40,565 nt of DNA from assembly GCA_029210875.1 (NCBI GenBank), contig JARGFJ010000023.1, forward strand, positions 1 to 40,565. Direction: 5' to 3'. Source of the stretch: Gammaproteobacteria bacterium (GTDB lineage: Bacteria; Pseudomonadota; Gammaproteobacteria; Nitrosococcales; Methylophagaceae). How positions within the stretch are numbered: position 1 is the stretch's first letter; every line of letters begins with the position of its first letter. Shown piece after piece: positions 91 to 16,216 of the stretch. The notes under the pieces were generated by a model. The model ran no database searches, was not told where the DNA came from, and saw nothing but the letters and a program-made list of their open reading frames with translations. A program made the translations under genes and the position numbers.

Positions 91-1997
91 GTCTTAATCC
101 CCTTTGAGCGGGGCTCGTTTTCAAACTCGTTTACGGCAACTAATAAGGGGTCGTATCATGTCTTAATCCCCTTTGAGCGGGGCTCGTTTTCAAACGTGGT
201 TGACGGCCGCGTTATCGCGCTCGTATTAGGTCTTAATCCCCTTTGAGCGGGGCTCGTTTTCAAACAAGAAATGGAGTTCCTTGCGGGATTTATCCGCAGT
301 CTTAATCCCCTTTGAGCGGGGCTCGTTTTCAAACTTACCAAGCTGGAATCAAAGCCGCGAATGCGGCATCGTCTTAATCCCCTTTGAGCGGGGCTCGTTT
401 TCAAACCCACTAACTAAAAAGGAGTCATAAAAATGAACACGTCTTAATCCCCTTTGAGCGGGGCTCGTTTTCAAACCCAAATTTTTCTCCCTAACGCATT
501 GGGTGGACGTGTCTTAATCCCCTTTGAGCGGGGCTCGTTTTCAAACTGCCGTGGTTTTATGTACCTCTTGCCACACCGCGTCTTAATCCCCTTTGAGCGG
601 GGCTCGTTTTCAAACAAATGAACGAGTTTCATGCCCACAGGGTGGGTGAGTCTTAATCCCCTTTGAGCGGGGCTCGTTTTCAAACTTTCGTTCCTCGCGG
701 GTTTTATCCGCGAGGTCTTAATCCCCTTTGAGCGGGGCTCGTTTTCAAACCCACTTTGCCCAAGGTGGTACCGCGGCAAAGCGTCTTAATCCCCTTTGAG
801 CGGGGCTCGTTTTCAAACGCTAATGCCGCGAGTCAACGAGCGCTCGACGCGGTCTTAATCCCCTTTGAGCGGGGCTCGTTTTCAAACAGCCCGTAAGGTC
901 TTTGCATCATGGGTTAAGGATGTCTTAATCCCCTTTGAGCGGGGCTCGTTTTCAAACAAAAGCCCAAACAGTTGTTGACACGTTTAATGGTCTTAATCCC
1001 CTTTGAGCGGGGCTCGTTTTCAAACGCATCTTATAAACTAAAGCAGTCAGATACTTACTGTCTTAATCCCCTTTGAGCGGGGCTCGTTTTCAAACATCAT
1101 AGCTGGGTTAGGATATGACATTAAAAAGACGTCTTAATCCCCTTTGAGCGGGGCTCGTTTTCAAACTTATCCGCCACTAGGTATACCTGCCCTTTATAGA
1201 GTCTTAATCCCCTTTGAGCGGGGCTCGTTTTCAAACTTGAAAACGCTGGATCAATCAGCAATTGATCGCGGTCTTAATCCCCTTTGAGCGGGGCTCGTTT
1301 TCAAACAAGCTAGACCTTTCAGTTGCGGCACAAGAGCTTGGTCTTAATCCCCTTTGAGCGGGGCTCGTTTTCAAACCCAATCCACGCAAGTGGATCCGTA
1401 TAGCCTACCGTCTTAATCCCCTTTGAGCGGGGCTCGTTTTCAAACTCACAATGTCCACAACACAACAACAAAATAGTCTTAATCCCCTTTGAGCGGGGCT
1501 CGTTTTCAAACGGTACTAGCGGCACCAATGCAAGATCGAAAAATGTCTTAATCCCCTTTGAGCGGGGCTCGTTTTCAAACACGCTGATCAATCGTTATCA
1601 GACTTAGAGTCTGGTCTTAATCCCCTTTGAGCGGGGCTCGTTTTCAAACAACTACTTAAAAGAGGAAAATAAAATGAAATTCAAGTCTTAATCCCCTTTG
1701 AGCGGGGCTCGTTTTCAAACTATATACGTTTTTCAATATTATGCATCCTGCACAGTCTTAATCCCCTTTGAGCGGGGCTCGTTTTCAAACGCGATCTGTC
1801 CAGCCCGTTACCACTAACTATCTGTCTTAATCCCCTTTGAGCGGGGCTCGTTTTCAAACGTCCACTGTCCCGCGCTAACACGTCGTTAGCGTCTTAATCC
1901 CCTTTGAGCGGGGCTCGTTTTCAAACGGGAGGCAGGAACAAAGTATGCCTCGAGGTACACCGTCTTAATCCCCTTTGAGCGGGGCTCGTTTTCAAAC
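91..1997 (-). CRISPR. CRISPR array, 28 repeats and 27 spacers (type III-B)
   Basis: The 36-bp repeat starts at 91, 160, 230, 299, 371, 441, 511, 580, 650, 715, 783, 852, 922, 990, 1060, 1131, 1201, 1271, 1341, 1410, 1476, 1545, 1614, 1685, 1755, 1824, 1891 and 1962. All 28 copies look identical. Spacers are 29-36 bp. Orientation: on the minus strand the repeat begins GTTTGAAAAC and ends with a CCCC/GGGG stem followed directly by ATTAAGAC, which has the form of a Cas6 product with an 8-nt 5' handle. Transcription therefore runs right to left, in the same direction as the cas genes, and the newest spacers should be near 1961. Three spacers (407-440, 1650-1684, 1927-1961) carry a Shine-Dalgarno and ATG on the plus strand, so their crRNAs would be antisense to mRNA. 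No repeat is degenerate at the distal end, which fits truncation of the array rather than natural decay. Confidence 0.98.
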
Positions 1998-2076
1998 CGC
2001 CCGAGGCGATAAGTAAAATAAATACAATGTGTTAATGGGTGGTTTCGAGAAAATATTGCCACACATAAAGTTGACC
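1998..2076 (-). promoter_or_regulatory. Short AT-rich CRISPR leader
   Basis: These 79 bp lie between the stop of the second cas2 and the first-transcribed repeat and are AT-rich next to the repeat. A weak promoter-like pair (TTAACA, 17 bp, TTATCG on the minus strand) can be read but is not convincing. The leader is so short that the array may be transcribed partly by read-through from the adaptation genes. New spacers would be inserted at the 1997/1998 junction. Confidence 0.5.
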
Positions 2077-2346
2077 TCAGTTAAATAGGTTTAATCCATC
2101 CGGCAACCATGCACAGCCAATTTGTAATGCCTCCGATAGTGGCTTGACCTGGTAGGCACGAATGTCGTCATAGCGTTCATCCATAAGGTGTTGCAGTTCA
2201 TCGAGTAGGTTGTTCAGATCCTTTTTATCCCCTTTCAGATAATAAACCGAAAGTTGTATAAAAACGGCATGTTTGACCATTCTCCTATGCACTCTGCCTA
2301 GTCTTCGCGGATCAGCAATATCATAACAAACCAAGTAGTGCGCCAT
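2077..2346 (-). CDS. cas2: Second Cas2 protein (Cas2')
   Basis: An 89-residue protein, normal for Cas2, the dimeric structural subunit of the spacer integrase. It opens with a ferredoxin-like first strand ending in CYD (residues 7-9), followed by PRRLGRVHR; the middle holds FIQLSVYYL. Cas2 proteins share the strand-end Asp, the basic helix and this second strand. It differs strongly from the other Cas2 at 4127-4408, so it is not a recent duplicate. Its ATG lies one base after the stop of the Cas1-like gene, so the two are probably translationally coupled. It is the last gene before the array. Having two divergent Cas2 proteins in one cassette is unusual; a Cas2-Cas2' heterodimer, or separate pairing with Cas1 and the Cas1-like protein, is inference. 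Confidence 0.88.
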   Translation of the reverse strand: MAHYLVCYDIADPRRLGRVHRRMVKHAVFIQLSVYYLKGDKKDLNNLLDELQHLMDERYDDIRAYQVKPLSEALQIGCAWLPDGLNLFN

Positions 2347-2347
2347 G

Positions 2348-3103
2348 TCAGACGATCGCTTCCAAGCGTGTTGTTAGTTGGATGAGCATTCGTCGTGTGG
2401 AATATTCGATCAAACTAGTCTGTGTCTGGTAGAACGTTATCATAGTTTGTGATGTTATAGCAAAATGGGGCTTTCGTTGTAAATGATTGGCCAGACCGTG
2501 TAATAACCAAAGTTGTGCCAGTGGTTTTATGTCATTGAGTAGTTTGTTTTGACCACGCTGTTGGGAAAAACCAATCTCAGCAATGACTTGTTCGAGTTGG
2601 AAATGGAGTAAGCCGTCCAACCAATCGAGCGCGGTGCGAAAATCTTGTTTACCCAGTGATTCGGTGCAGAAACTCCGCAGTGCTTCATAGACAAGTTTGT
2701 GACGTGTCTGGTAAGCACCAAGGTGAAACCCCATTATTGACAGGGCATATAATCCTTGATGCAGTAGCCAGTCTGCATAAATTTGTTTGACTTCGGGATC
2801 AAATTCTACGTGTTCAAACCAGTGATCGACCAAGGCTGTGTCACTGGCTGGCGCTTGCAATCGACAGCGCAGGCGGCCATCTGCATGAAAAAATGCTACT
2901 GGAATACGCTGTTGTGCACAAAACAACAGTGCGTCCATGCCAGACTGTGGCGTGCCTATGATATGAATTCGCAGCAGTCGCCGTAACGGAAAAAGCACGG
3001 GGCTTTTCATTTTCATGACGACCTTTAGTGCAGGTCCGTCCATGCCTAGTTGGGCTAGTTTGCGGGTATCTATTACCAATGATGTAGGCACGGTTTCTGT
3101 CAT
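2348..3103 (-). CDS. Shortened Cas1-like protein lacking the catalytic residues (Cas1')
   Basis: A 251-residue protein against 338 for the neighbouring Cas1. The first 80 residues follow the Cas1 N-terminal beta domain: LVID at 9-12, PLRRLLRIHIIG at 39-50 and IPVAFFHADGRL at 67-78 line up with the start, the PLS segment and the VTVIFI strand of the real Cas1. Near the C-terminus, LLHFQLEQVIAEIGF (165-179) then DIKPLAQLWLL (191-201) resemble the Cas1 helices around the active site. The RGIEG segment with the first catalytic Glu is missing, and the loop with the catalytic His is shortened and contains only Gln and Asn. I therefore read it as a Cas1 homologue without nuclease or integrase activity. 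It overlaps cas1 by ATGA (3100-3103) and is followed at once by a second cas2, so it is probably made in step with both. A structural partner in a Cas1-Cas1' complex is the most natural guess. Homology is judged by eye only. Confidence 0.62.
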   Translation of the reverse strand: MTETVPTSLVIDTRKLAQLGMDGPALKVVMKMKSPVLFPLRRLLRIHIIGTPQSGMDALLFCAQQRIPVAFFHADGRLRCRLQAPASDTALVDHWFEHVEFDPEVKQIYADWLLHQGLYALSIMGFHLGAYQTRHKLVYEALRSFCTESLGKQDFRTALDWLDGLLHFQLEQVIAEIGFSQQRGQNKLLNDIKPLAQLWLLHGLANHLQRKPHFAITSQTMITFYQTQTSLIEYSTRRMLIQLTTRLEAIV

Positions 3104-4116
3104 GCTTTCTCTTCTGTCTGGCTTGCGGGCTTAGTTATATTGGTGTCGAGCTTTGGTATTTGTAAATCCAGTTGCAATTGTTTAAGCCAGTGACGACTGG
3201 TTCTGCGCATTAATTTTCGCCAGCCGCGTGCTTTGTGCTCGTAGTGACTGTAGTAGTTTGATCTACCTGCTTTACCCAGCAGGCATGATGTGTCGGTGCT
3301 GCCTTTTGCTTCGAAGCTGAAATGATCGTGTCTGAGGATTTCGTGAGCAAATAATGTCCACACCCATTGGTCGGCGATGGGTCGGTAGATCTCCACCAGA
3401 TCACACGCCAGTGATTCTCTACCAAAAGTCGGTAAGTGGTAGATCCCAAGGTGTGGATCAAAACCGGTCGAGATCAGTACTCGGATGGCTTCGGCATGTA
3501 GCATGGTATAGGTAAGCGACAGTACTGCATTGACCGGATCGCGCGGTGGTCTGCGATTGCGACCGGTGAATGCAAGCTTCGGTGCAAACAGGCTTTGATA
3601 TGCTTCGAAGTACATGGCTGCGGATGAACCTTCAATGCCTCGTAGTGTTTCGATTGTGCTCGCTGCGATCACTCGCTGTTCGACAGGATGCAGTCGCTCA
3701 ATGCCTTTGGTCAATGGCAAACGTTTGTCCGGTCGGCCGCGCAGGGCTTTTTTGAGTAGGGCTCGCTGTCCGCGTAGTTTTTGTCTGACCAGCATTTTGG
3801 CATAGCGTAATTGGATCTCTGGGTCGCTAATTGCCTTATATTGGATGAGACGGCGGTCGGTGGAATTGTGCAGTAAGCCGGTAGCAATGCTGGATGCTTC
3901 ATGCTTTCTCGGGTTGATAAAAATGACGGTGACATTAGCCAGTGTTAGTTGCGTCAGTATCGTTGATGAAAATTGCACTGATGCGCTGATAACAAGAAAT
4001 TCAAGTATGCTCAAGGGGACAGAAAATGGCCGTGGACGATCTGTAATTCTTACCAGAAGACGGCCGCCTTGAATTGTTAGCTCGGCATTTTTTCGGTCTA
4101 TGTATAAGGTTTCCAT
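3100..4116 (-). CDS. cas1: CRISPR integrase Cas1
   Basis: 338 residues, the usual length. Cas1 cuts and joins prespacer ends into the leader-repeat junction as (Cas1)4-(Cas2)2. The N-terminal beta domain starts METLYID. The catalytic domain has LRGIEG with E162, YHLP with H227 and ACDLVE with D239/E242, the metal-binding set of active Cas1 enzymes. The segment NAVLSLTYTMLHAEA precedes the His loop as usual. The protein begins directly with the Cas1 fold, so there is no fused reverse transcriptase or Cas6 domain. It follows cas2 by 10 bp and overlaps the Cas1-like gene by 4 bp. The ATG at 4116 has only a weak ribosome-binding site, so expression may depend on coupling to cas2. Confidence 0.97.
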   Translation of the reverse strand: METLYIDRKNAELTIQGGRLLVRITDRPRPFSVPLSILEFLVISASVQFSSTILTQLTLANVTVIFINPRKHEASSIATGLLHNSTDRRLIQYKAISDPEIQLRYAKMLVRQKLRGQRALLKKALRGRPDKRLPLTKGIERLHPVEQRVIAASTIETLRGIEGSSAAMYFEAYQSLFAPKLAFTGRNRRPPRDPVNAVLSLTYTMLHAEAIRVLISTGFDPHLGIYHLPTFGRESLACDLVEIYRPIADQWVWTLFAHEILRHDHFSFEAKGSTDTSCLLGKAGRSNYYSHYEHKARGWRKLMRRTSRHWLKQLQLDLQIPKLDTNITKPASQTEEKA

Positions 4117-4126
4117 GGCTCTGTGA

Positions 4127-4408
4127 TTATCCTAAATATGTGAATAGCTCATCTGCGGGTGTCATGGCAATTCCCAATGTGGAAACAGCATCACGGCTGA
4201 CTAGCTGAATGACTAGGAAAGCGTCTTCTTTCAAGTTGATGCAGTCTTCGACCCGGCCTACTAGTTCCTTACGTTCTGAATTGGTCAGATAACATTCAAA
4301 TGCCGATTTCTGACCACCGCAGGCAAATTCTTTCAGTACCTGGTGAACTCGGCGCAGCCGCTTGGGGTTACGCACATCATAAGCAACAAGAAAAAGATCA
4401 CGTGCCAT
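4127..4408 (-). CDS. cas2: Cas2, adaptation subunit
   Basis: 93 residues. The first strand ends in the conserved AYDV (residues 8-11, Asp10), then a basic helix RLRRVHQVL, then QKSAFECYL, as in standard Cas2. The C-terminal strand IQLVSRDAV follows. This is the more canonical of the two Cas2 proteins and sits directly before cas1, so it is the likely partner of the active Cas1. It starts 12 bp after the csx16 stop, suggesting one transcript csx16-cas2-cas1-cas1'-cas2'. Confidence 0.95.
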   Translation of the reverse strand: MARDLFLVAYDVRNPKRLRRVHQVLKEFACGGQKSAFECYLTNSERKELVGRVEDCINLKEDAFLVIQLVSRDAVSTLGIAMTPADELFTYLG

Positions 4409-4420
4409 TATCGTTAGCTC

Positions 4421-4735
4421 TTATCCATGTCCAAACATGACGGATTGTGGCTGCAAGGCTATATATTCGACCAGTGATGCACCTAGCTCGTTTAACATGT
4501 CAGCTGAGAGTTCTTGACCGCGTAACTGTTCTGGCAGATCCAATTGCAGGTGAAGATAACGCGCACCACGTCGGCAGATGTCGGCAACAAGATTGATCGG
4601 CATCGTTCCTATTACGATGTCGCCTTTGGCAATGACTTCCAACCGTTCAAGATGCCGAATATGGGTGGTAGGCTCTCTGATTTTTTGTTGCAGCCATTCA
4701 ACGGCACCAGGATGACGGCTAATAAGGTAAATCAT
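4421..4735 (-). CDS. csx16: Csx16 (VVA1548 family), probable cyclic oligoadenylate ring nuclease
   Basis: The start MIYLISRHPGA, the segment KGDIVIGTMPINL and the segment GARYLHLQLDLP near residues 60-71 are hallmarks of the Csx16/VVA1548 family. Family knowledge, from memory: Csx16 accompanies type III systems, and recent work assigns it ring-nuclease activity that removes cyclic oligoadenylate and so ends the response. Start choice: an ATG at 4753 is in frame, but AAAGGAGAG lies between it and the ATG at 4735, an ideal ribosome-binding site for the inner start, giving 104 residues. Csx16 heads the adaptation gene group rather than sitting in the cmr operon. This could let signal shut-off follow spacer acquisition rather than interference; that is inference. 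Confidence 0.85.
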   Translation of the reverse strand: MIYLISRHPGAVEWLQQKIREPTTHIRHLERLEVIAKGDIVIGTMPINLVADICRRGARYLHLQLDLPEQLRGQELSADMLNELGASLVEYIALQPQSVMFGHG

Positions 4736-5063
4736 CTTCTCTCCTTTATTCATTTATGAATTGAAAAGTGCGCTTGATCGTGTTGCAACTGCAAGTACAT
4801 TCAAGAACTGGAGAGCATTATGACTTGGTCTGATGGCATATACGATTTTGGCAAGCTTGCAGAGAAACTATGGCTGCTTGAGTGATACTTGTAATGAATT
4901 TGTAGACTTTCATTCATTAGCGTGAAAACGGTGAGTCATTGGGCAGTAGTGAGTACAATTATCGATAGAACCCCGATAAAAGGTTTTGGGAATGACGTGT
5001 TTTTTAAGTCTGTGAGATGAATGACGATGGTGTAAATCTACAGAATGATTTGATTCGGGTACA
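4736..5063. promoter_or_regulatory. Intergenic region between cas6 and csx16 with an operator-like dyad
   Basis: This gap of about 330 bp is the only long break in the locus and probably separates two transcription units. It contains a perfect 8-bp inverted repeat, TAATGAAT (4892-4899) and ATTCATTA (4912-4919), with 12 bp between arms, the geometry of a dimeric repressor site. A tiny plus-strand reading frame lies at 4820-4885. No clear minus-strand -35/-10 pair could be fixed, and I see no tRNA or larger gene here. Confidence 0.35.
4820..4885 (+). CDS. Candidate 21-residue leader-like peptide, opposite strand
   Basis: An ATG at 4820 is preceded by GGAG at a 6-base spacing, an excellent ribosome-binding site for such a short frame. 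The peptide begins MTWSDGIYDFGKLAEK and ends before a TGA at 4883. No family is recognised. It lies on the strand opposite to all cas genes, just left of the dyad at 4892-4919. It may be a gene remnant or chance. Confidence is low because only the ribosome-binding site supports it. Confidence 0.2.
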   Translation: MTWSDGIYDFGKLAEKLWLLE

Positions 5064-6020
5064 TTACTGTGATTGATTGACCCACTGATAGTGACCTAGA
5101 CCAAACGCGGTTTCTTTTCCGACATGCAGCCATTGGCCAAGATAGATAAATGGCAGTAGTTCCGCTGGCACGCGCTGCAGATGCCAATGTCCCATCAGTC
5201 CACCTAGGGCCATTTTATGTTGCTGGCGAGAAGATCGTCGTGTCCAGTCATGCCAGTTGAGTTGGCATGTATCACTGCTGACTTGATCTGCTAGCTGATT
5301 TAGCTGTCGGATTGTGTCCAGTGAGTAGCTGCCGGGTCGCTGGGCATTGACATGTACACTGACACGGCGGATCAGATGGCGTAGAAAAATAGATGGTGTC
5401 AGCTCGCGTGTGCCGATGAGTTGTCGCTGTTGCATGATGCGAAGAGGCGTTTGCACGTGCAGATGCACTTTTGCAGGTTCAGAAAATTGCGGGATAGCTA
5501 ACGCTGTGTTGTGAGCTTTAAGTGTCGAATCAGTCGATAAGATTTCACAAGCTGTGTTGTAAATGCTGTTGACCTTAGCAACTGTTGCAATATGTTCGAG
5601 TTTGATCAACTCGGCCGTACCGTCTTTTGGCCCGACCCCCAAAGCAAACGCTCGTTTCCAGGCGGCGACGATCAGCGGCAGTTCAGCGATGGCTTTTGGT
5701 GTCATCAGCACCATGTCAAAGGCATAGTCATCGCCCTGTCGATAGCGTGTAACTTCACCAAACGTCGTTTCGATCGCGTAAGGCGCAAGCGCGGCCAGAC
5801 CGTCGGGGTTCTTTGGGGCATGTTGCGGCTCAAACAAGGGCGGATAAGCGCAGTGAGCTATCAGGGCGCAGCCTTCACAATGAGCTGCACGAGTAACACA
5901 CGCCCGGTGCCGCAAGGCGTGACCAAAAATGCCTCGCAAGGTCGAGCTGGCATAAGGCGGTAGCTGCATGGGTCTGTTCACTCGCCAATGAAATCGGTAT
6001 CGAGCGATTTGGAGGTTCAT
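5064..6020 (-). CDS. cas6: Cas6-family crRNA-processing endoribonuclease (RAMP)
   Basis: 318 residues, typical of the larger Cas6 branch (Cas6 RAMP family, PF10040-like). The N-terminal ferredoxin-like domain begins IARYRFHWRV and contains STLRGIFGHALR. A cysteine cluster at about residues 40-58 (C, HCEGC, HCAYPP) is common in this branch. The C-terminal glycine-rich loop GKETAFGLGHY near residues 302-312 is the RAMP signature. Role: cutting the repeat below its CCCC/GGGG stem to leave the ATTAAGAC handle. It overlaps the end of the CARF nuclease gene by ATGA (6017-6020), so it is the last gene of the effector operon. The catalytic His cannot be assigned by eye. Confidence 0.88.
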   Translation of the reverse strand: MNLQIARYRFHWRVNRPMQLPPYASSTLRGIFGHALRHRACVTRAAHCEGCALIAHCAYPPLFEPQHAPKNPDGLAALAPYAIETTFGEVTRYRQGDDYAFDMVLMTPKAIAELPLIVAAWKRAFALGVGPKDGTAELIKLEHIATVAKVNSIYNTACEILSTDSTLKAHNTALAIPQFSEPAKVHLHVQTPLRIMQQRQLIGTRELTPSIFLRHLIRRVSVHVNAQRPGSYSLDTIRQLNQLADQVSSDTCQLNWHDWTRRSSRQQHKMALGGLMGHWHLQRVPAELLPFIYLGQWLHVGKETAFGLGHYQWVNQSQ

Positions 6021-7162
6021 TGGTTTATCCAGTCTCGCAGTCCGGATTTAAGATTGCGGATGTCTGTCCCCTGGATCACTTTGATACGCAAATCCTTGGC
6101 GCGCTTTTGATCTGCGGTGTTGAGCTTGCGATAGCTGACCAGCATCGACTTTGTCGCCAGCCCGCCCAGATCACTGATCGAGTCGAGCTTGTACACGGTG
6201 TCGGTGGTGGCATCGGCGGTGCCTTTACCGGCCATGCGTTTGGTCTTGCATTCAATCAGATGCAGGCGGTTTCTGGCCATGAAGCAGACATCGATTTCGT
6301 TATGCGAGGTAGCACCGATACGTTGAATATGCTGGTTCAATCGTGGGCTGTCCTGGATAACACCATCGCGTTTGAGTTCGTTAAGCTTGCTGCTAACGTA
6401 AACTTCCAACCAGCCACCATTAGCGAAAGTACGCGCATCTTCGTCGCTGAAGCAGACTTCGACGTTCGCTTTTTTTGACAATAAGCCAGCTTGGTAACAT
6501 TCAATTAATAACACGTTGAGCTGTGGATCTTGCGGGTGTGGAAGTCGCGCCAGTTGCACGGAAAGGCTGTTTTGGCTCTCAGCAATACTGGCAAGGTTGT
6601 TCAGCTGCCCGATCGCCGCTTGCCAGCTGTCAACTTTAAGAACCAGTTGCTGGCAAAAGTCGCGCAATTTTGGTGGCAAGCCGGTTGGCTGGCTTTGTTC
6701 ACGAAACTGGTAACCATAAGCCTGAATGTAGCTTTTGAGATCGATATGTTGTGACAGGGTATGACTGGTCGGGTCGCCATCGAGAAACAACACTTTGTCA
6801 TCTTCGACTTTCACATAGAATATCCCAGCCCCCTTCATACGGAATACTTCCTGGGCAGCAATCGCCATCCACTTGGTGCCACCGGTGACATTGAGCGCGA
6901 TTTCGCCGTCTGGCTCAGTGTCGATAATGCCAATCAGTTGTTCTTCCATAGCATTGAAATCATCAATCAGTTCTAACGGTTTCTGCACCACCTTGATACC
7001 CCGTGGTTTTATCACCTGTTCCAGATAGTTGGCCTGTTGCTTCATTTGTGGCGTGACCAGTAGCACTACTTGCTCTGGTTTCATGTCGTCGTCCAGCAAA
7101 GGAAGCAGGTTAGGCGCGGCCTGTTGCGAGACCATGCAAAAATGGGTTTTGTATTTTTTCAT
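6017..7162 (-). CDS. Can2/Card1-type CARF nuclease (DUF1887 family), cyclic oligoadenylate-activated
   Basis: 381 residues in two parts. The N-terminal half (about 1-150) is a CARF domain with the ligand motif VTGGTK at 92-97. The C-terminal half holds a PD-(D/E)XK nuclease core: NEID with D291, then LIECKTK with E304 and K306. The combination and length match Can2/Card1 proteins, which as dimers bind cyclic tetra-adenylate and cut nucleic acids nonspecifically, causing dormancy or abortive defence. No Csm6 or Csx1 HEPN RNase is visible in the window, so this is the only recognisable signal-activated effector. It starts 6 bp after the cmr6 stop and overlaps cas6, so it is made with the surveillance complex. 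The activator ring size cannot be read from sequence. Confidence 0.9.
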   Translation of the reverse strand: MKKYKTHFCMVSQQAAPNLLPLLDDDMKPEQVVLLVTPQMKQQANYLEQVIKPRGIKVVQKPLELIDDFNAMEEQLIGIIDTEPDGEIALNVTGGTKWMAIAAQEVFRMKGAGIFYVKVEDDKVLFLDGDPTSHTLSQHIDLKSYIQAYGYQFREQSQPTGLPPKLRDFCQQLVLKVDSWQAAIGQLNNLASIAESQNSLSVQLARLPHPQDPQLNVLLIECYQAGLLSKKANVEVCFSDEDARTFANGGWLEVYVSSKLNELKRDGVIQDSPRLNQHIQRIGATSHNEIDVCFMARNRLHLIECKTKRMAGKGTADATTDTVYKLDSISDLGGLATKSMLVSYRKLNTADQKRAKDLRIKVIQGTDIRNLKSGLRDWINQ

Positions 7163-7168
7163 GGTATT

Positions 7169-8485
7169 TTAATTTCCCTGACCTTTGAGTTCGTTGACAT
7201 CCGCTTTTAGACGTTCCTTACCCTTTTTCGACACACCCCACTTGAATGTTTCCTGCACGAGTTGAGCTGCTTCAAGACGGGAACGCGGATCTTCCCAAGA
7301 CAGTGCTACCTTAATAAATTCATTACGCCTGGAATTGAATGGATGGCTAGGGCCATAGAGATCATTACATGCCTGCTCATAGACTGCGCGAAACTTTTCA
7401 ATAACGGCTCGATTGTCTTCATAGGCGATATCCTCTGGGCTCATTTGGCTGCGGCGCGCCGCTTCCTGTTGTTGTTTTAACTGCTCGGCCCGCTCGGCTT
7501 TTTTCACCGCGTCTTCGGCCATCGCACCATAGCCTACTGCTGTTTTGGCACCAAAGCCCAGCCAACTGAAGGCATGATCAAATGCGGCTTGCAGCAATGT
7601 TTTCCAGTTTCCCTGCTCGACTAGATCTTCTGCCAACTGCCGCAAAAACAAGCTGTCGCAGGTGACATGAAAGGTGAAGCCGGAACCGGGCGGGACGGTC
7701 AGAAAGCCCAGCGGCACCGGCATACCTGAGTCATGCGGCGTTTGGCCGTCCTGATAGTAATGTTTCTGATGCGGGGTCATGATTTCAACCAGCAAACTAT
7801 TGCCCTTGATCTGCGGGATAACATCCCAAAAGGTCAATGCGCCGCGTTGCAGTTCCGTTTCTCCATCCTGACTTTCCAGCCCGAACAAGGCGGTGATGGC
7901 GGCTTGGTTCCAGCCGTGGCTGTCGCCCCAGTCACCGGAGGCCAGTTCGCGCGCAGACTGGCGCAACACACCTTTGACGCCACTGCCGGGCAGATAAGGC
8001 AAGCCGTAGGGATTAAGAAAGGCAAAGCCATTTTCCAGCGGGTGTGCGTTGCCGAGGCCAGTGGTAAACGGTGCGCTGGCGATGGCGTCCAGGATGAGTA
8101 CTTGGCCACTATTAGCAAAAGCCAAGGCCTGATGCTGTTGGCGAAGCTGCAGGTTCTCCATGAGTTTCCTGTCATTGACGCTCAACTTAGTGATGTCTTG
8201 CCAAGTCTGCTTTATGACATCGGCATCATCGTTTTTAGCCCACAAGGCGGGAATAGGGTTTTTGTCGCGCTTAATCCATTGAGTGATGGTTTCATCCATG
8301 CCATGCTTGTTTAGGTGCTCTTTTATTTCGGAACCTTCGCGGCTTTTGGCTTTAGCGCGTTTTTTTACCTGTTCTTCCTGATCCTGACGAGTGGCCCAGA
8401 TAGACAAATAATAGCCAAAACGCAGGCCCGGCGAGGCTTCTGAAAAATCAGTGCCCAGATAGGCAGGTACGGCAGCGATGGTCAT
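7169..8485 (-). CDS. cmr6: Type III-B RAMP protein Cmr6
   Basis: 438 residues. Cmr6 is the Cas7-family subunit at the crRNA 3' end of the Cmr complex. The RAMP motif LPYLPGSGVKGVLRQ (about 165-179) and the glycine-rich WLGFGAKTAVGYGAM segment (about 315-329) identify it. The N-terminus has a charged KKRAKAKSREG segment. A long helical C-terminal extension (about 330-438, rich in Glu, Lys, Gln and Arg) makes it longer than many Cmr6 proteins. The start at 8485 has a strong GGAGGGGAG upstream and lies 1 bp past the cmr5 stop. Confidence 0.93.
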   Translation of the reverse strand: MTIAAVPAYLGTDFSEASPGLRFGYYLSIWATRQDQEEQVKKRAKAKSREGSEIKEHLNKHGMDETITQWIKRDKNPIPALWAKNDDADVIKQTWQDITKLSVNDRKLMENLQLRQQHQALAFANSGQVLILDAIASAPFTTGLGNAHPLENGFAFLNPYGLPYLPGSGVKGVLRQSARELASGDWGDSHGWNQAAITALFGLESQDGETELQRGALTFWDVIPQIKGNSLLVEIMTPHQKHYYQDGQTPHDSGMPVPLGFLTVPPGSGFTFHVTCDSLFLRQLAEDLVEQGNWKTLLQAAFDHAFSWLGFGAKTAVGYGAMAEDAVKKAERAEQLKQQQEAARRSQMSPEDIAYEDNRAVIEKFRAVYEQACNDLYGPSHPFNSRRNEFIKVALSWEDPRSRLEAAQLVQETFKWGVSKKGKERLKADVNELKGQGN

Positions 8486-8486
8486 A

Positions 8487-9793
<1,307 letters not shown>

Positions 9794-9822
9794 CTACTGA
9801 ATCATTTTCTGAAAAGAAATCT

Positions 9823-9843
9823 GTGGCTGCTCTCGCCAGCCAC
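9823..9843 (-). other. Intra-operon hairpin between cmr3 and cmr4
   Basis: Arms GTGGCTG and CAGCCAC form a perfect 7-bp stem with a 7-nt loop in the 100-bp gap. On the minus strand it is followed by AGATTTCTTTTC rather than a clean T-run, so it is a weak terminator at best. It may mark an RNA-processing or stability site that raises the level of the multi-copy Cmr4 relative to Cas10/Cmr3; that is inference. Confidence 0.4.
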
Positions 9844-9878
9844 ACGTCGATATAATTTGCTTATTGCCCCTCTATTGA

Positions 9879-11006
9879 TTACCAAGCAGCTAGGGCAAAA
9901 CGATTAAAGCCTTCGGTGCGACGTGAAACATCTTCGCACGGTTCGCCCCACAAGCCGTTTTCGGCAAGCTTGCGCAGGCTGGATTCGGTCGCATCGAGTT
10001 CATCCAGCCAGTAAACACTGCCGGTCGGCACCGCTTTTTGTGCGGCCTTGGGCTGCCATCTGGCCAAATCCCAACCGGAAATGGTTTCAGCGCGAGGTAT
10101 GGCAGCACAAACCAGTCTGGCTTGAATGCCGCCCGGCAATCTGACCCTGTCATCACTGTCACAGCCGGGCAGTTTCCAGCCATCCGCGAACAACCCCGGA
10201 CTGGTCAGCACGATGCGGCAGCGTTTAGCCCGGACTATGGCGGTGTAATCGGCTTCCGGTAAGTTGAAATTCACCTGTTGAATGTTGGCAGCGCGACCAT
10301 CACCGCCCAAGCGTAACAAGCCGCTTTCCGGTGGGACGGCACCTGTAACCACAGCTATAAAACCGACCCCATCTTTCATCGCCACAGCTTGAGTTGAGAA
10401 CAATTTACCTTCTTCTACGCTACGGGTGGCTGAGCTCATGCCAATACCGACCCTGGCATCGAGACTCCAGAGTTGCGACGATTTTTCCAGTTGCTCAGGC
10501 AAAGGCGTTTGGCCGTTGAGATAGGCCGACCAACCCGCTTGCGTTAGCCAATAGCCGCCTTCTGGCTTGCTGCGTTGGTTGCCCTGTGCCAGCACCGGCA
10601 ACATCGGTAGCGGAAACGAAGACGCCAGCGCCAGTGGTTCAGGTGACAGCCGATCAATCAATAGCTTATCTTCAGCCGTTTTGCTGACCACCAGATCCGC
10701 CGGAGCTGGCATCAGTAGTTCAAGTTGGCTGTCTGCACGTTTACGTGCCAGATAAAAACCTGTCAGCATAAAACTGCCCGGTTGCTCAGGCGTGCCCAAT
10801 TCGGCATCATCTGTCACCTTACCGGCGCCAAAGGCTTTGAGGTCGATGTTTTTATCGACCAGCATTCTGGAACGCAGCGCGCCAGCCGCGACCGAGGGCC
10901 AAGGTGGAATTAGTGCTTCGCCATAACTGCCGGGGTCGCCAAATAACTTATTGCCACGCAGAAACAAAACATCCAACGGTTGGATAAAACGGTAATGCAG
11001 GTTCAT
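9879..11006 (-). CDS. cmr3: Type III-B subunit Cmr3 (Cas5 family)
   Basis: 375 residues. Cmr3 binds the crRNA 5' handle and bridges to Cas10. It starts RFIQPLDVLFLRGNKLFGD, followed by PPWPSVAAGALRSRML (about 34-49), both standard Cmr3 features. The C-terminal half has GSVYWLDELDATESSL and closes with EGFNRFALAAW, the conserved Cmr3 ending. It overlaps cmr2 by ATGA (11003-11006), with CAGGAGA upstream of the ATG. No truncation is seen. Confidence 0.93.
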   Translation of the reverse strand: MNLHYRFIQPLDVLFLRGNKLFGDPGSYGEALIPPWPSVAAGALRSRMLVDKNIDLKAFGAGKVTDDAELGTPEQPGSFMLTGFYLARKRADSQLELLMPAPADLVVSKTAEDKLLIDRLSPEPLALASSFPLPMLPVLAQGNQRSKPEGGYWLTQAGWSAYLNGQTPLPEQLEKSSQLWSLDARVGIGMSSATRSVEEGKLFSTQAVAMKDGVGFIAVVTGAVPPESGLLRLGGDGRAANIQQVNFNLPEADYTAIVRAKRCRIVLTSPGLFADGWKLPGCDSDDRVRLPGGIQARLVCAAIPRAETISGWDLARWQPKAAQKAVPTGSVYWLDELDATESSLRKLAENGLWGEPCEDVSRRTEGFNRFALAAW

Positions 11007-14000
11007 AGTTGGTCTCCTGTGCGAACTGCGCGGGCCAGGAACTCGGCCACGGCAAGCAGGTTACGCATTTTTTCGATGCGTTTGACCGGCTTGTCTTGTT
11101 TCTCTTGTTGCTCTTGTGACCAGTTCAGCGCCAACGTCACCAGCCGCCGTGCCAAATCGGGCACCTGATCCTTGGCTGCGCCTTGGGCCTGCCTGTCCAG
11201 TTGATACTGCAACAGGGTTTGCGCCATGCCGTTATCGAAGGCATTCTCCGGTATTTCATGCTCATCCAACCAACTGAGAGTGTGATAGACAGCGCGGCGG
11301 GACACGCCATCCTGAACCAGAAAGTCGCGCAGCGCGATCAACAGGTCGACCGGCTCGCCCCATTTTTCGGTGAAATACAAGGTGCCCCCGGAGCGCTTGA
11401 TAACGGTGACTGAAAAGGCATCGCGGCCACCCTCGTTCTTGGCTCTTTGTTCTGCAGCGCGCAATTCGCGCATGACCGCGCTCAAAGGCGCTTGATGGTG
11501 GGCGATCACCGCGCCACAGGAGGCAGTGGCATTTTTGCCCATCATGCGCATCAGGCGGCCTTTCAACCAGGCAAAACCTTGTTTGCACGCCAACGTGTTG
11601 CGTTTGCGTAGCACACCCCAATCGATATCCTGATCTTCCGGCACGGTGCCGCTGTAAGCATGACGTAGCCGCTGCATGGTCGAAAACAGATCGGTGACCG
11701 GCAACATGGCCAGCACATCGTCACCACCAGCGTAAATCAGGCGGCCTAAATGCTCGCGTTCCACGACATGACGCGCCACGATTTGCGAGAAATCATTGAG
11801 CGCGCCGGAAATCGCCAGATGGCGGTTTGGGGTGACCGCGCGCTTCTGCTCGCCATAAGCTTTAAGTCCTAGCTGGCGTTCGGCGCGTTCGGCAAAGCCT
11901 TTCTTCACTTTGGGGTGAAAACTGTCTTGATAGCTGATCGCCGTTTGCGTTATTTCATCACCAGACAAAATAGCGCCCATGCGATCACCATCCATCATGA
12001 TCAGGCTGTAGTAGGTTTCGACAGCGCCACCCAGCAGGTCTTTGAGCTCGCGTTGTGCGGCTTCATAATCGGTTTCGTTATCGCTATCTTTGGCATCTTC
12101 CAGCCAGCCGGGAATGCGGGCGATCAGATCACTTTGCGGGTGCTTGTTCTTACGGAGATTGGTAGCCAGTTGTGCCGGTAAGGCCACGCGGGTTTTGTCC
12201 TTGAGTTTGGCCGCCAGCTGAACATTGATGACGGTTTGGCTGGTGCAGAATTGATCGAGCTGATGAGCCAATGCCATGGTGTGGGTGGAGACCACAAAAC
12301 GATCAATCTGTTTTATCGATTCATCATCCGCTCCCGCCAATGCACGACCTACTTCACGTTTGAACAGGGTTGGCCACAGGCGTTTGATGGCCGGCAAGGC
12401 GCTCAGGTGTTCGCCTTTTTTGGCCCAGGCAGGTTTCGCATCGGCCACTTTGGTCCAAAGCGTGCCTTGTTGTTGGCGGTAGCTCTGGTTCCAGTGCAGT
12501 TGCTTACCGTCGGTGGTCAGCCATTCCTGTTCACCGGTCAGCGAACAACGCCAGCCTTGTTGCTGGCTTTGCGCAAACGGACGGCTGGCCTTGGCAGCGG
12601 CCAAGACGCGCTCGGCCAGATCAAACACCGCCGGATACAGCACACCAGGGTTGGGGCTAAAGAAAACCTGCTTTTTACCTTGTTCATTCTGTACGTTCAG
12701 CTCTTTTTGCAGCACTTTCCAGGCGGGGGTGTCCAAAAAGCCAGGCTCACCCTCGCCCTTGAAAAAGGGCCGCATGGCGTTGGATAGCAGGCTAAGATCC
12801 AGATCGCGCTGTTTTTGTCGGTCGTTACAGCGGATCAATGAAAACGGCACCACCGCCCAGTGCACTTCGGGAAAGCCCTGTAATTGTGTTTTCATTTGAT
12901 CATAGGGCGTTTTGATATTTTCCTGTTCGCCTTGATAACCGGCTACGGTCAGTAATTCGTTAACCACATCCTCACCCAGCTCTTTCAGCCATTGGCGAAC
13001 ACTGGTTTCAACCGCTTGCGCAATTTTTTTGGCCTGACTGGCCGGCACCAGCGCCACAAAGCGGTTGGGCAGTGCAGCGGAAAACAAGGGATTGGCATCG
13101 GTGCTGGATTGATGCCAGTCACAGTCTTTGAACAGTTCCTTCGGCAGATTCATATCATCGCGCAGCCATAAATCCACTTGCGGAATGCCGCGCAAACGGG
13201 GAAATAAAATGGCATCCGGCCCCAGTTGCTCACACACTGGGCGCATCGCTTCAAAAGCGAGGCGCGATAGCAGATGCGAGCCGGCCCACAAGTCAGAGGT
13301 GGTGCGGGCAGCGGCAATGAACGGCTGCACCGGACCGATGGACAGGCTTAATAAAGCCACTTCACCGTCCGGGTCGGCGGCAAAGGCACCGGCGAAGGCC
13401 GAAGTCAGATCGAGGTGATCCCAGATACTGTGATCGGGAATGCGGGTGTCGGCCGGCAGGATCTCCCACAGCTTGCCCAGTTTGTCGTTATCTTGGGTAT
13501 CGGCATCGGTCACATCCAGATCGGGACCGAAACGCCAGAAAGTCAGCAGCAATTTGCGCCAGTCCAGCTGTTGTTGATCACCTGCACCGAGTTTGACTAA
13601 AAGCTCGGAAAAATGGTTGAAACTGCGATCCTTGACCGCCTCGATCGCGGTCTCGGTCAGATTGTGCAGATCGATGCGGTCGCCGGTTAAAGGATGAATC
13701 AGCACCGGCTCCTTGGCCCAGCGCACCTGCGCCCAGCCGGAAACCGCCATCGTTTTGCTATCACCTTTTTTGGTTTTAACGGTGATTTCATCCATCGGAA
13801 ACTGAGGCCGATCTGCTGCCGCGGCCCACCAGTCAGCGCGCTGAACGTGGACGTACATGGCTTTGGGGATGCCTTTTTTGAACAGGGTGCGCACCAGCGC
13901 CTCGTCATTTTCGCTATCCATGGTTGCGGTGTTCAATTCATGAAAGCCCAGCAGCCGGGACAGCGCCAGGCTGGTGCCGTTTTCATGCCCTGCCGGATCG

Positions 14001-14083
14001 CGCATCAGCACCAGCGCTTTTTCCGCCGGATCGTGCAAACGGGCAGCGACTTTGGTTTGCCAGAGGGTGTTGTTATCAGTCAT
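11003..14083 (-). CDS. cmr2: Type III-B large subunit Cmr2 (Cas10), cyclic oligoadenylate synthase
   Basis: 1026 residues, at the long end for Cmr2. The N-terminus has RLHDPAEKALVL with H17-D18 and H33, the remains of, or a minimal, HD nuclease site. The first palm domain begins around SLSIGPVQPFIAAART (about 243-260). A CSLTGE segment stands where a zinc ribbon usually lies, but only one Cys is clear. The second palm contains MMDGDRMGAIL and then YAGGDDVLAML with GGDD at 786-789, the intact cyclase motif. The complex should therefore make cyclic oligoadenylate on target binding, consistent with CARF proteins at both ends of the operon. It starts 2 bp after the cmr1 stop and overlaps cmr3. 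Whether the HD site cuts DNA is unclear; many Cmr2 HD domains are weak. Confidence 0.96.
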   Translation of the reverse strand: MTDNNTLWQTKVAARLHDPAEKALVLMRDPAGHENGTSLALSRLLGFHELNTATMDSENDEALVRTLFKKGIPKAMYVHVQRADWWAAAADRPQFPMDEITVKTKKGDSKTMAVSGWAQVRWAKEPVLIHPLTGDRIDLHNLTETAIEAVKDRSFNHFSELLVKLGAGDQQQLDWRKLLLTFWRFGPDLDVTDADTQDNDKLGKLWEILPADTRIPDHSIWDHLDLTSAFAGAFAADPDGEVALLSLSIGPVQPFIAAARTTSDLWAGSHLLSRLAFEAMRPVCEQLGPDAILFPRLRGIPQVDLWLRDDMNLPKELFKDCDWHQSSTDANPLFSAALPNRFVALVPASQAKKIAQAVETSVRQWLKELGEDVVNELLTVAGYQGEQENIKTPYDQMKTQLQGFPEVHWAVVPFSLIRCNDRQKQRDLDLSLLSNAMRPFFKGEGEPGFLDTPAWKVLQKELNVQNEQGKKQVFFSPNPGVLYPAVFDLAERVLAAAKASRPFAQSQQQGWRCSLTGEQEWLTTDGKQLHWNQSYRQQQGTLWTKVADAKPAWAKKGEHLSALPAIKRLWPTLFKREVGRALAGADDESIKQIDRFVVSTHTMALAHQLDQFCTSQTVINVQLAAKLKDKTRVALPAQLATNLRKNKHPQSDLIARIPGWLEDAKDSDNETDYEAAQRELKDLLGGAVETYYSLIMMDGDRMGAILSGDEITQTAISYQDSFHPKVKKGFAERAERQLGLKAYGEQKRAVTPNRHLAISGALNDFSQIVARHVVEREHLGRLIYAGGDDVLAMLPVTDLFSTMQRLRHAYSGTVPEDQDIDWGVLRKRNTLACKQGFAWLKGRLMRMMGKNATASCGAVIAHHQAPLSAVMRELRAAEQRAKNEGGRDAFSVTVIKRSGGTLYFTEKWGEPVDLLIALRDFLVQDGVSRRAVYHTLSWLDEHEIPENAFDNGMAQTLLQYQLDRQAQGAAKDQVPDLARRLVTLALNWSQEQQEKQDKPVKRIEKMRNLLAVAEFLARAVRTGDQL

Positions 14084-14085
14084 GG

Positions 14086-15084
14086 TTATGCCTCGCCCCG
14101 ATGTAATTGTGCATGTCTATCCAGAAATGCGTGCGCTGTACTAAAACAGCCGATAAAACCCTGCTGCTTTTGCGCTGTAAGCTTCTTCCACAGTTCATCT
14201 GAAGGCCGACAGGGCACATGAAAGATAACGGCAATGAAATTTTTACCCTCGGAACGCACCTTGAAACGCAAACTATGAGGAACGCGCGCATTCTTGTCCC
14301 AGCCAGGCATGGATGACTTGGTGTCGGGGTAGGCCAGCATCAACCGATCAGGAACCGCTCTACGCATATCAGCACGCGTCTGAGCAAGCAGATTCATTGC
14401 TCTATCCCAACTCGGTTTTGGCCCGGAATGCCAAATTAGAATGCCCTTTTCGTCTCTGCCCAAGGCCTGAGGCCAATCCAATTCCATCGCTGTTTTCCAC
14501 TCCTGCACGAGCGTCTCCAACCCTGTCAATTCACCTTGTAATTCAAAAGAGCCCCAGCCATTACGGCTACGACCACCCAAGGTACCGTAGGCATTCATCA
14601 GTGCTATAGCTTGCTCAATGCCAGCATCTTCAGGAAAGGCAATGTGAAAACGGGTCTCTGCACCAGACTGGATTGCAGCATTGGCTTTTAGTTTCGGCCC
14701 TGGACGTTTCGGCTTTGGAAGTTTCGGCCCTGGAACAACAGGTCCGTAGCCGGAATACAGTGCACCCGGAATCTGATTCTTACCCATGACAACCCTGCCG
14801 ATATCGGGGGCCTGATTGAGTTTCCCCAAACCCCAGTCGTCAAGCCGAATCCTTACCCTGCTTTTCCTGGACTCGGCACCATCCGCCGCCACACCAAACA
14901 GCCGCCCTTCTTCTGTGCGCATGGCCGCGATATTAACCTGAAAATTATTTTCTGCCGCATACACTACCCGCCACCATTGCCGAAGTAGTGCCTTGAATGG
15001 CGGGGTGCGCCACTGGCCGTTCTGTTCAGCATTGCCAAGAAATGCTGGAGTGAGAAATTTCACGGTGTAGCTTGTTTGTTTCAT
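14086..15084 (-). CDS. cmr1: Type III-B RAMP protein Cmr1
   Basis: 332 residues. Cmr1 is the Cas7-like subunit near the crRNA 3' end. The opening VKFLTPAFLGNAEQN followed by TPPFKALLRQWWR (about 27-40) is diagnostic. NAYGTLGGRSRNGWGSFEL near residue 170 is the glycine-rich RAMP loop. A Pro/Lys-rich repeat, GPKLPKPKRPGPKLKA (about 118-133), is inserted before it and probably forms a flexible basic loop. The ATG at 15084 has GAAGGAA upstream. The stop is 2 bp before cmr2. Confidence 0.92.
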   Translation of the reverse strand: MKQTSYTVKFLTPAFLGNAEQNGQWRTPPFKALLRQWWRVVYAAENNFQVNIAAMRTEEGRLFGVAADGAESRKSRVRIRLDDWGLGKLNQAPDIGRVVMGKNQIPGALYSGYGPVVPGPKLPKPKRPGPKLKANAAIQSGAETRFHIAFPEDAGIEQAIALMNAYGTLGGRSRNGWGSFELQGELTGLETLVQEWKTAMELDWPQALGRDEKGILIWHSGPKPSWDRAMNLLAQTRADMRRAVPDRLMLAYPDTKSSMPGWDKNARVPHSLRFKVRSEGKNFIAVIFHVPCRPSDELWKKLTAQKQQGFIGCFSTAHAFLDRHAQLHRGEA

Positions 15085-15100
15085 GCTGGAGTTCCTTCAG

Positions 15101-16216
15101 TCATGGTTGCGGTGGGTTCTGTTGATCAATGCTCAACTCGATGTCGTCAGGCAAAGTATAGGCACGTCTGCCGTCAATGACACGGCTGGCAAGCTTGCAG
15201 CGTTCTGCCAACTCAATCCCCAAGGTATCGGCCAAGGCATGATTCAGTCGGGAGATATTTTGTTCCAGCCAACGCTGGGTGATGCCATCACGTTTCAAAG
15301 TGTCTTCTGTTCTGCTGGGCAGCGATAGCCAGTAATGTTCGGCCAGCGCAAGCAGCTCATCGGCAGGACGCTGTTCGGATTCAACCACCGGCTCGATGGG
15401 TGGCTGTTGCTGCAAAGCACGGGTCACCACCCACAGCAGCAGGCTCATATGCAGCGCATTCAGCGCTCCGGTTTGGTCGTTAACCTGGTAATGCTGACTT
15501 TTTGGGTAGAGCGTCAGACGAATGTTTTCAGTTGCTTGACGTGCCAGGCGCACGGTTTCGCTGAAACTGTGCGTGCCCTTGAGCAGGGTTTCCGGCAGGC
15601 GGTTGCGCAGGCGCACAAAGGGAATTTCCGCCAGCCACACTCTGGCATCGCGGCTATCGATTGACCGGCCGTCGCGGGTTTTGATCAGGCGGCTATGGGG
15701 CGTGGGATAAAAGAAATCCGGGTGTGATTCGTAATGTTCACTGACCAGCACATGACTCAGGCAATCTTGCGACCGGCCAAACAACGACAGCGCGTAACCG
15801 GCATAAAAGCCCATGGTTTTGCGCCCGCCGGCCAGGGAAACGTGCAGTTCGGTGTCGTCGTCGGCGGTCAATTGCTGAATGGCGGCACAAATGGTGTCGG
15901 CGGCCGCTTCGTTGTCTTGCGGGGTACGCAGGTCGGAAAGCTCGTGGCCTTGTGCATCCTCAATCAGAATAATCTGATCTTCAGTAAAGCGAATCGGCTG
16001 GGTGATCTGCAAATCGTCCATCAGCTGGTTGAAATGGCGCGGCCCTTCTAACAAATGCTGCATGGCGTTTTCTTTGCCGATGCGGGTGGTGATCAGCCAA
16101 ATTGCATCCGGTAGCCAGTTTTTATCTTTGATCAGAGCATAAAGCGTTTCGGTAATGATCTGTGGCGACATACCACTTACAGCTAGAAGAACTTTGCGGG
16201 CTTGGATGCTAGTCAT
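15101..16216 (-). CDS. NE0113-family CARF protein (SSO2081/Crn1-like domain), putative sensor or ring nuclease
   Basis: 371 residues. The N-terminus VLLAVSGMSPQIITETLYAL (about 9-28) and SLAGGRKTMGFYAGYALSLFG (about 126-146) match the Cas_NE0113 family, whose domain is related to the SSO2081-like CARF fold of ring nuclease Crn1. The last 100 residues (about 270-371) look helical with a GITQRWLEQNISRLNHAL segment and may form a winged helix; this is by eye. No nuclease motif of the Csm6 or PD-ExK type is visible. It could degrade cyclic oligoadenylate, act as a ligand-controlled regulator of the operon, or both. It is the first gene of the effector operon, with AAGGGA just before its ATG. Confidence 0.82.
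   Translation of the reverse strand: MTSIQARKVLLAVSGMSPQIITETLYALIKDKNWLPDAIWLITTRIGKENAMQHLLEGPRHFNQLMDDLQITQPIRFTEDQIILIEDAQGHELSDLRTPQDNEAAADTICAAIQQLTADDDTELHVSLAGGRKTMGFYAGYALSLFGRSQDCLSHVLVSEHYESHPDFFYPTPHSRLIKTRDGRSIDSRDARVWLAEIPFVRLRNRLPETLLKGTHSFSETVRLARQATENIRLTLYPKSQHYQVNDQTGALNALHMSLLLWVVTRALQQQPPIEPVVESEQRPADELLALAEHYWLSLPSRTEDTLKRDGITQRWLEQNISRLNHALADTLGIELAERCKLASRVIDGRRAYTLPDDIELSIDQQNPPQP

Follow-up and report, generated by a model that had tools for sequence, protein, structure and literature searches.

A predicted catalytically dead Cas1 homologue and two Cas2 families in a conserved adaptation cassette of type III CRISPR-Cas loci

We analysed a stretch of 40,565 nucleotides from a gammaproteobacterium (referred to here as the window), which contains a CRISPR-Cas locus with a doubled adaptation cassette. 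Translation of the frames of the window gave four undamaged cassette genes, cas2, cas1, cas1' and cas2', all on the minus strand. The cas2 gene (4127-4408, 93 aa; Pfam, 2.6e-13) represents the first of two Cas2 families and carries a GGQKS motif. It is separated by 10 nt from cas1 (3100-4116, 338 aa; Pfam Cas1, 1.9e-68), an intact integrase gene, whose end overlaps by 4 nt (ATGA) with cas1' (2348-3103, 251 aa). The latter encodes a Cas1 homologue without the catalytic residues, recognised by Pfam Cas_Cas1, hhalign and PADLOC. After a gap of 1 nt it is followed by cas2' (2077-2346, 89 aa; Pfam CRISPR_Cas2, 6.5e-13), a member of the second Cas2 family. A CRISPR array with 28 copies of a 36-nt repeat (91-1996, minus strand; crRNA sense GTTTGAAAACGAGCCCCGCTCAAAGGGGATTAAGAC) lies downstream of the cassette in the same sense, and the gap between the array and the stop codon of cas2' (1997-2076, minus strand) is, by its position, the putative leader side.

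Upstream, the cassette is flanked by csx16 (Cas_VVA1548; 4421-4753; Pfam 1.4e-29, TIGR02620 7.8e-27) and further genes of the locus, all on the minus strand. The latter comprise cas6 (5064-6020; PADLOC 4.9e-81), a gene for a CARF-PDDEXK (Card1-like) effector (6017-7162; Pfam Card1_endonuc 2.1e-32) and a run of type III-B effector genes (7169-16216) with cmr6, cmr5, cmr4, cmr3, cmr2/cas10, a probable cmr1 and a protein of the NE0113 'ring nuclease Csm6' family. Profile matches were clear for Cas10/Cmr2 (TIGR02577, 5e-66), Cmr4 (4.6e-58), Cmr6 (2.2e-31) and Cmr5 (2.3e-20); the match of Cmr3 (1.6e-26) was slightly below its cut-off, and that of Cmr1 was weak and sub-threshold. Judged by these profiles, which identify Cas10/Cmr2 together with Cmr3 to Cmr6, the locus is assigned to type III-B. 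Csx16, the Card1-like CARF nuclease and the NE0113 family protein (15101-16216) all occur in this one locus. Another contig of the host genome (G000 C27:1592-2239) carries an additional Cas1 with a frame of 316 residues, and therefore a second CRISPR system is likely in this host.

The sequence-only reading of the window had described its Cas1 as intact, with E162, H227 and D239. These residues were correctly placed, and they were invariant, together with E242, in 48 of the 48 Cas1 proteins that we aligned, 46 of which are partners of Cas1' in a cassette. None of the 46 partners had lost the catalytic E/H/D/E set.

We wanted to establish whether the 251-residue protein encoded by cas1' is related to Cas1. 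Taken alone, it matched Pfam Cas_Cas1 in its N-terminal part only (2.7e-6; 27.2 bits, with a cut-off of 22.3). Further, we built a profile from 15 Cas1' sequences and compared it by hhalign with the profile of the partner Cas1 proteins. Approximately 250 columns were aligned (probability 98-99%, E 1e-13 to 5e-18), and the similarity extended along the full length of Cas1', across both the N-terminal beta domain and the C-terminal helical domain. In the same profile alignment, Cas1' had no counterpart of the segment bearing the GxEG motif, no counterpart of the arginine-rich loop R-x-R-R-P-P-x-D-P, and no catalytic His. Since the GxEG segment and the arginine loop are missing, Cas1' is shorter than Cas1 (about 250 and 320 residues, respectively). 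The sole catalytic counterpart was the Asp of an SLAxDL motif, which falls on D239 or close to it, so that Cas1' does not hold the GxEG Glu, His and Asp/Glu set of an active integrase. The protein had been proposed to be Cas1-like and devoid of the GIEG Glu and the His, and the profile comparison bears this out on both points. Cas1' is therefore a homologue of Cas1 that is predicted to have no active site and to be catalytically dead. The mean net charge was +4 for Cas1' and +16 for Cas1. Structure prediction by AlphaFold2 from a two-sequence input gave a pLDDT of 54 for Cas1' with no match in Foldseek, a depth too low even for a genuine Cas1 (pLDDT 46), so that the prediction weighs neither for nor against a Cas1 fold.

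Cas2 and Cas2' formed two stable and separate paralogue families across the loci. Both gene products were above the Pfam and TIGR01573 cut-offs for the Cas2 domain and both families retain the YD that closes the first strand. The Cas2 family is marked by GGQKSVFEC, whereas the Cas2' family has PvQYSVF...DDvRxYpLP, with (P)vQ.SV(F/Y) and DD.R.Y as its motifs, and each family has a C-terminus of its own. The second Cas2 of the cassette, noted earlier as divergent, is thus a separate conserved family.

We surveyed other genomes for Cas1'. The survey covered one phylum, 14 control genomes (searched with the PADLOC profile) and contigs, the latter by a pattern scan that detects close relatives only. 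With the single sequence as query, 12 of the 369 genomes searched in the class, the window's own among them, proved to have Cas1', and more loci were obtained by profile searches in the phylum, in one order and in smaller groups. The total came to 49 to 51 loci, the exact number varying with the treatment of contigs that end within the cassette. The hosts belong to the Gammaproteobacteria, the class of the window, and, in the case of G468, G488, G499, G527, G566 and G574, to a second class within the phylum. Among the sampled gammaproteobacterial genomes with Cmr4 above its cut-off, approximately half (13/28) carried Cas1'. No other genome that we searched in the genus of the window had the gene, and Cas1' was not found among the proteins of phages, plasmids or viral contigs either.

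The order cas2-cas1-cas1'-cas2', on a single strand, was kept in all 45 complete loci of the main survey, and the same order was seen in three more type III-B loci (L157, L158 and L166). This conservation had been put forward as a check of the sequence-only reading, as had a search for close relatives that have the same system without the gene; no such relative with the same cassette was found. Both cas1 and cas1' were present in 48 loci, and the 4-nt overlap of the stop codon of cas1 with the start of cas1' occurred in 27 of them. One copy of Cas1' (G060) lies beside Cas10a, Csm3 and Csm4, which means that this locus is of type III-A and that the cassette is not tied to a single effector. Two decayed loci (L154 and L171) have a broken cas1 and no cas1'. 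The type III-B locus L152 (2629-4369) has an intact cas1 and both cas2 families without cas1'. It indicates that Cas1' is not always required alongside two Cas2 proteins and offers a natural comparator.

Further, we examined the evolution of the cassette genes. In a tree built from 117 Cas1-like proteins, with weak support for many internal nodes and long branches in Cas1', all 46 Cas1' sequences fell into one clade (SH-aLRT 99). The 46 partner Cas1 proteins formed one group as well, except that the decayed L171 fell inside it and L152 adjoined it. The Cas1 and Cas1' trees were similar to each other. Pairwise distances of Cas1 and Cas1' were correlated with r = 0.96, the highest value of the six gene pairs in the cassette; the others ranged from 0.84 to 0.90 (Cas1-Cas2 0.90, Cas1-Cas2' 0.89, Cas1'-Cas2' 0.87). 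Linked genes are also expected to co-diverge. For most close pairs the dN/dS of Cas1' lay at 0.08-0.24; two pairs had 0.35-0.40. Cas1' evolves faster than Cas1 (mean identity across loci 0.29 vs 0.48), and its conservation is higher in the N-terminal region than in the rest (0.53 vs 0.38), the reverse of what was seen in Cas1 (0.56 vs 0.60). Outside the catalytic set, P39 was conserved in 46/46 and C62 in 44/46 Cas1' sequences; at position 198, in the numbering of the window's own Cas1', 40/46 have Trp, and that protein itself has Leu.

These substitution patterns indicate that Cas1' is functional, under purifying selection and evolving together with Cas1. The tight packing and undamaged state of the frames had been taken as a sign that no decay is under way, and both the gene order and the purifying selection support that view. 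An origin of cas1' from decay or a frameshift of Cas1 was also considered and rejected on the grounds of its own start codon, the order kept in 45/45 loci and the purifying selection.

We wanted to see whether the spacers carry traces of an unusual integrase, as directional insertion and the holding of hairpin-ended prespacers had both been suggested for the cassette. The pool consisted of 845 distinct spacers, read in crRNA sense, from 31 arrays or array groups adjoining Cas1' (868 spacers after the addition of L157). We counted perfect stems of at least 5 bp whose base lies exactly at the spacer end. Such hairpins were found at the 5' end of 42 spacers, 4.2 times the shuffled expectation, and at the 3' end of 18 (1.8 times); at inner positions the excess was 1.7 times. 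The asymmetry persisted without the window's own spacers (38 at the 5' end vs 18 at the 3' end, p = 0.01). As controls we used arrays whose class and orientation were set by gene content and repeat ends. Hairpins at the 5' end were more frequent in the Cas1' arrays (42/868) than in type I arrays, a group that is mostly I-C-like and was not typed gene by gene (4/485, p = 3e-5). They were not significantly more frequent than in the small set of type III arrays without Cas1' (7/259, p = 0.17). Hairpins were therefore rejected as a hallmark of Cas1': their excess is clear against type I arrays, but not against type III arrays without Cas1'. Exact scans of viral sequences gave no protospacers for the hairpin spacers.

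A strand direction was observed as well. T exceeded A on the crRNA strand in each of the 27 loci that had 8 or more spacers (arrays of L052-L157 and the window), and a Shine-Dalgarno-ATG arrangement lay on the target strand in 63 cases vs 20 in the Cas1' arrays. The corresponding numbers were 12 vs 13 for type I arrays and 23 vs 6 for type III arrays without Cas1', while the RT-type arrays, a small sample, had no strand direction. The T-richness and the Shine-Dalgarno-ATG bias mean that type III spacers are strand-directed here. Since similar signals are present in type III arrays without Cas1', neither the orientation nor the hairpins can be credited to Cas1'. Directed spacers and an enrichment of hairpins at their 5' end agree with the two suggestions, but a causal part of Cas1' does not follow from them. 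The orientation can be explained by selection for working guides, with no special integrase required.

The integrases known to us consist of one Cas1 and one Cas2. The cassette resembles the Cas1-Cas2 heterohexamers of four Cas1 and two Cas2 subunits, including that of Cas6-RT-Cas1-Cas2 (PMC8102632), in its Cas1 E/H/D/E residues, its Cas2 and the adjoining array; a further point in common is that known Cas1-Cas2 complexes use only one catalytic Cas1 per dimer. However, here a predicted dead paralogue is present as a gene of its own, there are two Cas2 families, and the locus has no RT. In the RT-Cas1 fusions of type III systems, too, the Cas1 of the adaptation module is modified. Pfam and TIGR profiles found no reverse transcriptase among the cassette genes, and RNA capture linked to an RT, as in RT-Cas1 type III adaptation, was rejected for this reason. 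The sole RVT_1 match in the host genome (5e-24) is on a separate contig (G000 C21:8429-8989).

In Streptococcus thermophilus type III-A, a preference for hairpins during adaptation was reported by Zhang et al. 2021, as related in PMC9048733. According to that review, spacers derive from stem-loops and are enriched for the coding strand, no RT is known, and Cas1 and Cas2 are described as the only proteins needed. The present cassette adds Cas1' and Cas2', and its hairpins lie exactly at the 5' end in crRNA sense and concern a few percent of the spacers.

The PADLOC profile PDLC01185 is labelled 'Cas1, diverged variant, second in the loci', which fits the place of cas1' after cas1. Several other Cas1' members had it as their best PADLOC match, and for the window's Cas1' it ranked lower. 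The match covers the N-terminal 110-125 residues (at most positions 1-122 of 246), with 2.4e-5 for the window and about 1e-12 for the others. PDLC01185 is a label only, with no function and no partner Cas2' described. No description of the doubled cassette was found in the open full-text papers, the 2025 CRISPR classification and the other reviews that we searched, and nobody appears to have studied it.

Taking together the gene order, the homology, the loss of catalytic residues, the purifying selection and the co-divergence, we lean towards the view that the cassette encodes a spacer integrase that is specialised and divides the work among its subunits, in which Cas1-Cas1' heterodimers are placed on Cas2 and Cas2'. 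The dimer contact of Cas1 is made by the N-terminal domain. Cas1', with that domain conserved and the active site gone, fits what would be expected of a dedicated non-catalytic protomer. In a solved heterohexamer Cas1a is catalytic and Cas1b is non-catalytic (PMC8102632), and in another integrase the repeat is touched by a Cas1 that is not catalytic (PMC6895254); an active site is therefore dispensable in one of the two Cas1 protomers of a dimer. In the cassette, Cas1 would be the catalyst of integration and Cas1' would fill the non-catalytic position of the heterohexamer. The core that carries the Cas1-Cas1' heterodimers would consist of Cas2 and Cas2', perhaps paired as a heterodimer. As these two Cas2 proteins differ, they may give the machine unequal ends, so that a prespacer would be loaded and inserted with fixed polarity. 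The physical association, the stoichiometry, the protomer that Cas1' would replace and the role in polarity are what we infer from the observations. A bolder version seems to us doubtful: an asymmetric integrase made of an active Cas1, a dead Cas1 paralogue and two different Cas2 proteins, which by virtue of its asymmetry would take up single strands in transcript sense that have a hairpin at the 3' end, and would insert them in the one orientation that gives a working antisense type III guide.

The strictly kept pairing of Cas1, Cas1' and Cas2' suggests a two-part memory-writing machine. Cas1 has apparently been divided during evolution between an active gene and a dead one, accompanied by two Cas2 proteins, in about half of the sampled gammaproteobacterial Cmr genomes. 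The cassette thus offers a natural experiment on integrase asymmetry and on what a non-catalytic Cas1 protomer contributes. It bears on how a useful spacer orientation arises in type III systems without Cas4, PAM or RT, and the system is tractable, since four proteins of modest size and one short repeat would suffice for tests.

Other explanations were weighed against this division of labour. The adjacent pairs cas2-cas1 and cas1'-cas2', each with a Cas2 that has its own C-terminus, would also suit two complexes, namely a Cas1-Cas2 integrase and a catalytically silent Cas1'-Cas2' complex for capture, delivery or regulation, which would bind prespacer, leader or repeat DNA and pass it on. We regard this as a minor possibility, as co-divergence is strongest between Cas1 and Cas1' and not between Cas1' and Cas2', Cas2' is retained without Cas1' in L152, and the net charge of Cas1', much lower than that of Cas1, speaks weakly against a stand-alone DNA binder. 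The sequence-only reading had itself suggested a hetero-integrase with an inactive Cas1 arm; in this version one arm would be a Cas1 dimer and the other a Cas1' dimer, so that one prespacer end is held unjoined. The dead homologue and the conserved four-gene order make a hetero-integrase the best reading; nevertheless, one dead protomer in each dimer is preferred to a whole dead arm. Full-site insertion requires chemistry at both ends, for which a wholly dead arm would be insufficient without help, and the enrichment of hairpins at one spacer end, which would suit such an arm, lacks a clear tie to Cas1'. This arrangement is therefore considered unlikely.

A novel activity of Cas1' itself, such as that of a nuclease with different residues, or a role in docking a partner that is unrelated to integration, is similarly improbable. 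The conserved P39, C62 and the Trp at position 198 could be read in this way, but among the best conserved positions of 46 Cas1' sequences there was no set of acidic residues and His suggestive of a metal site. Least probable of all, and hardly credible, is a functionless duplicate that is decaying or hitchhiking. The faster evolution of Cas1' and the intact L152 without it would agree with such a duplicate, whereas the intact frames in one order, the mostly low dN/dS and the occurrence in two classes speak against it.

We also inspected individual spacers of the window. Two of them (266-298 and 686-714), both hairpin-ended, share the sequence GTTCCTyGCGGGwTTTATCCGC. Both were probably acquired from one and the same site in mobile elements that are related to each other; the shared sequence had no match among viral contigs. 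Another spacer (1650-1684) matches, in 31 of 32 bases, a family of shrimp-associated Vibrio plasmids (e.g. NC_025152.1), where a small gene begins, and its crRNA would be antisense to the mRNA of that gene.
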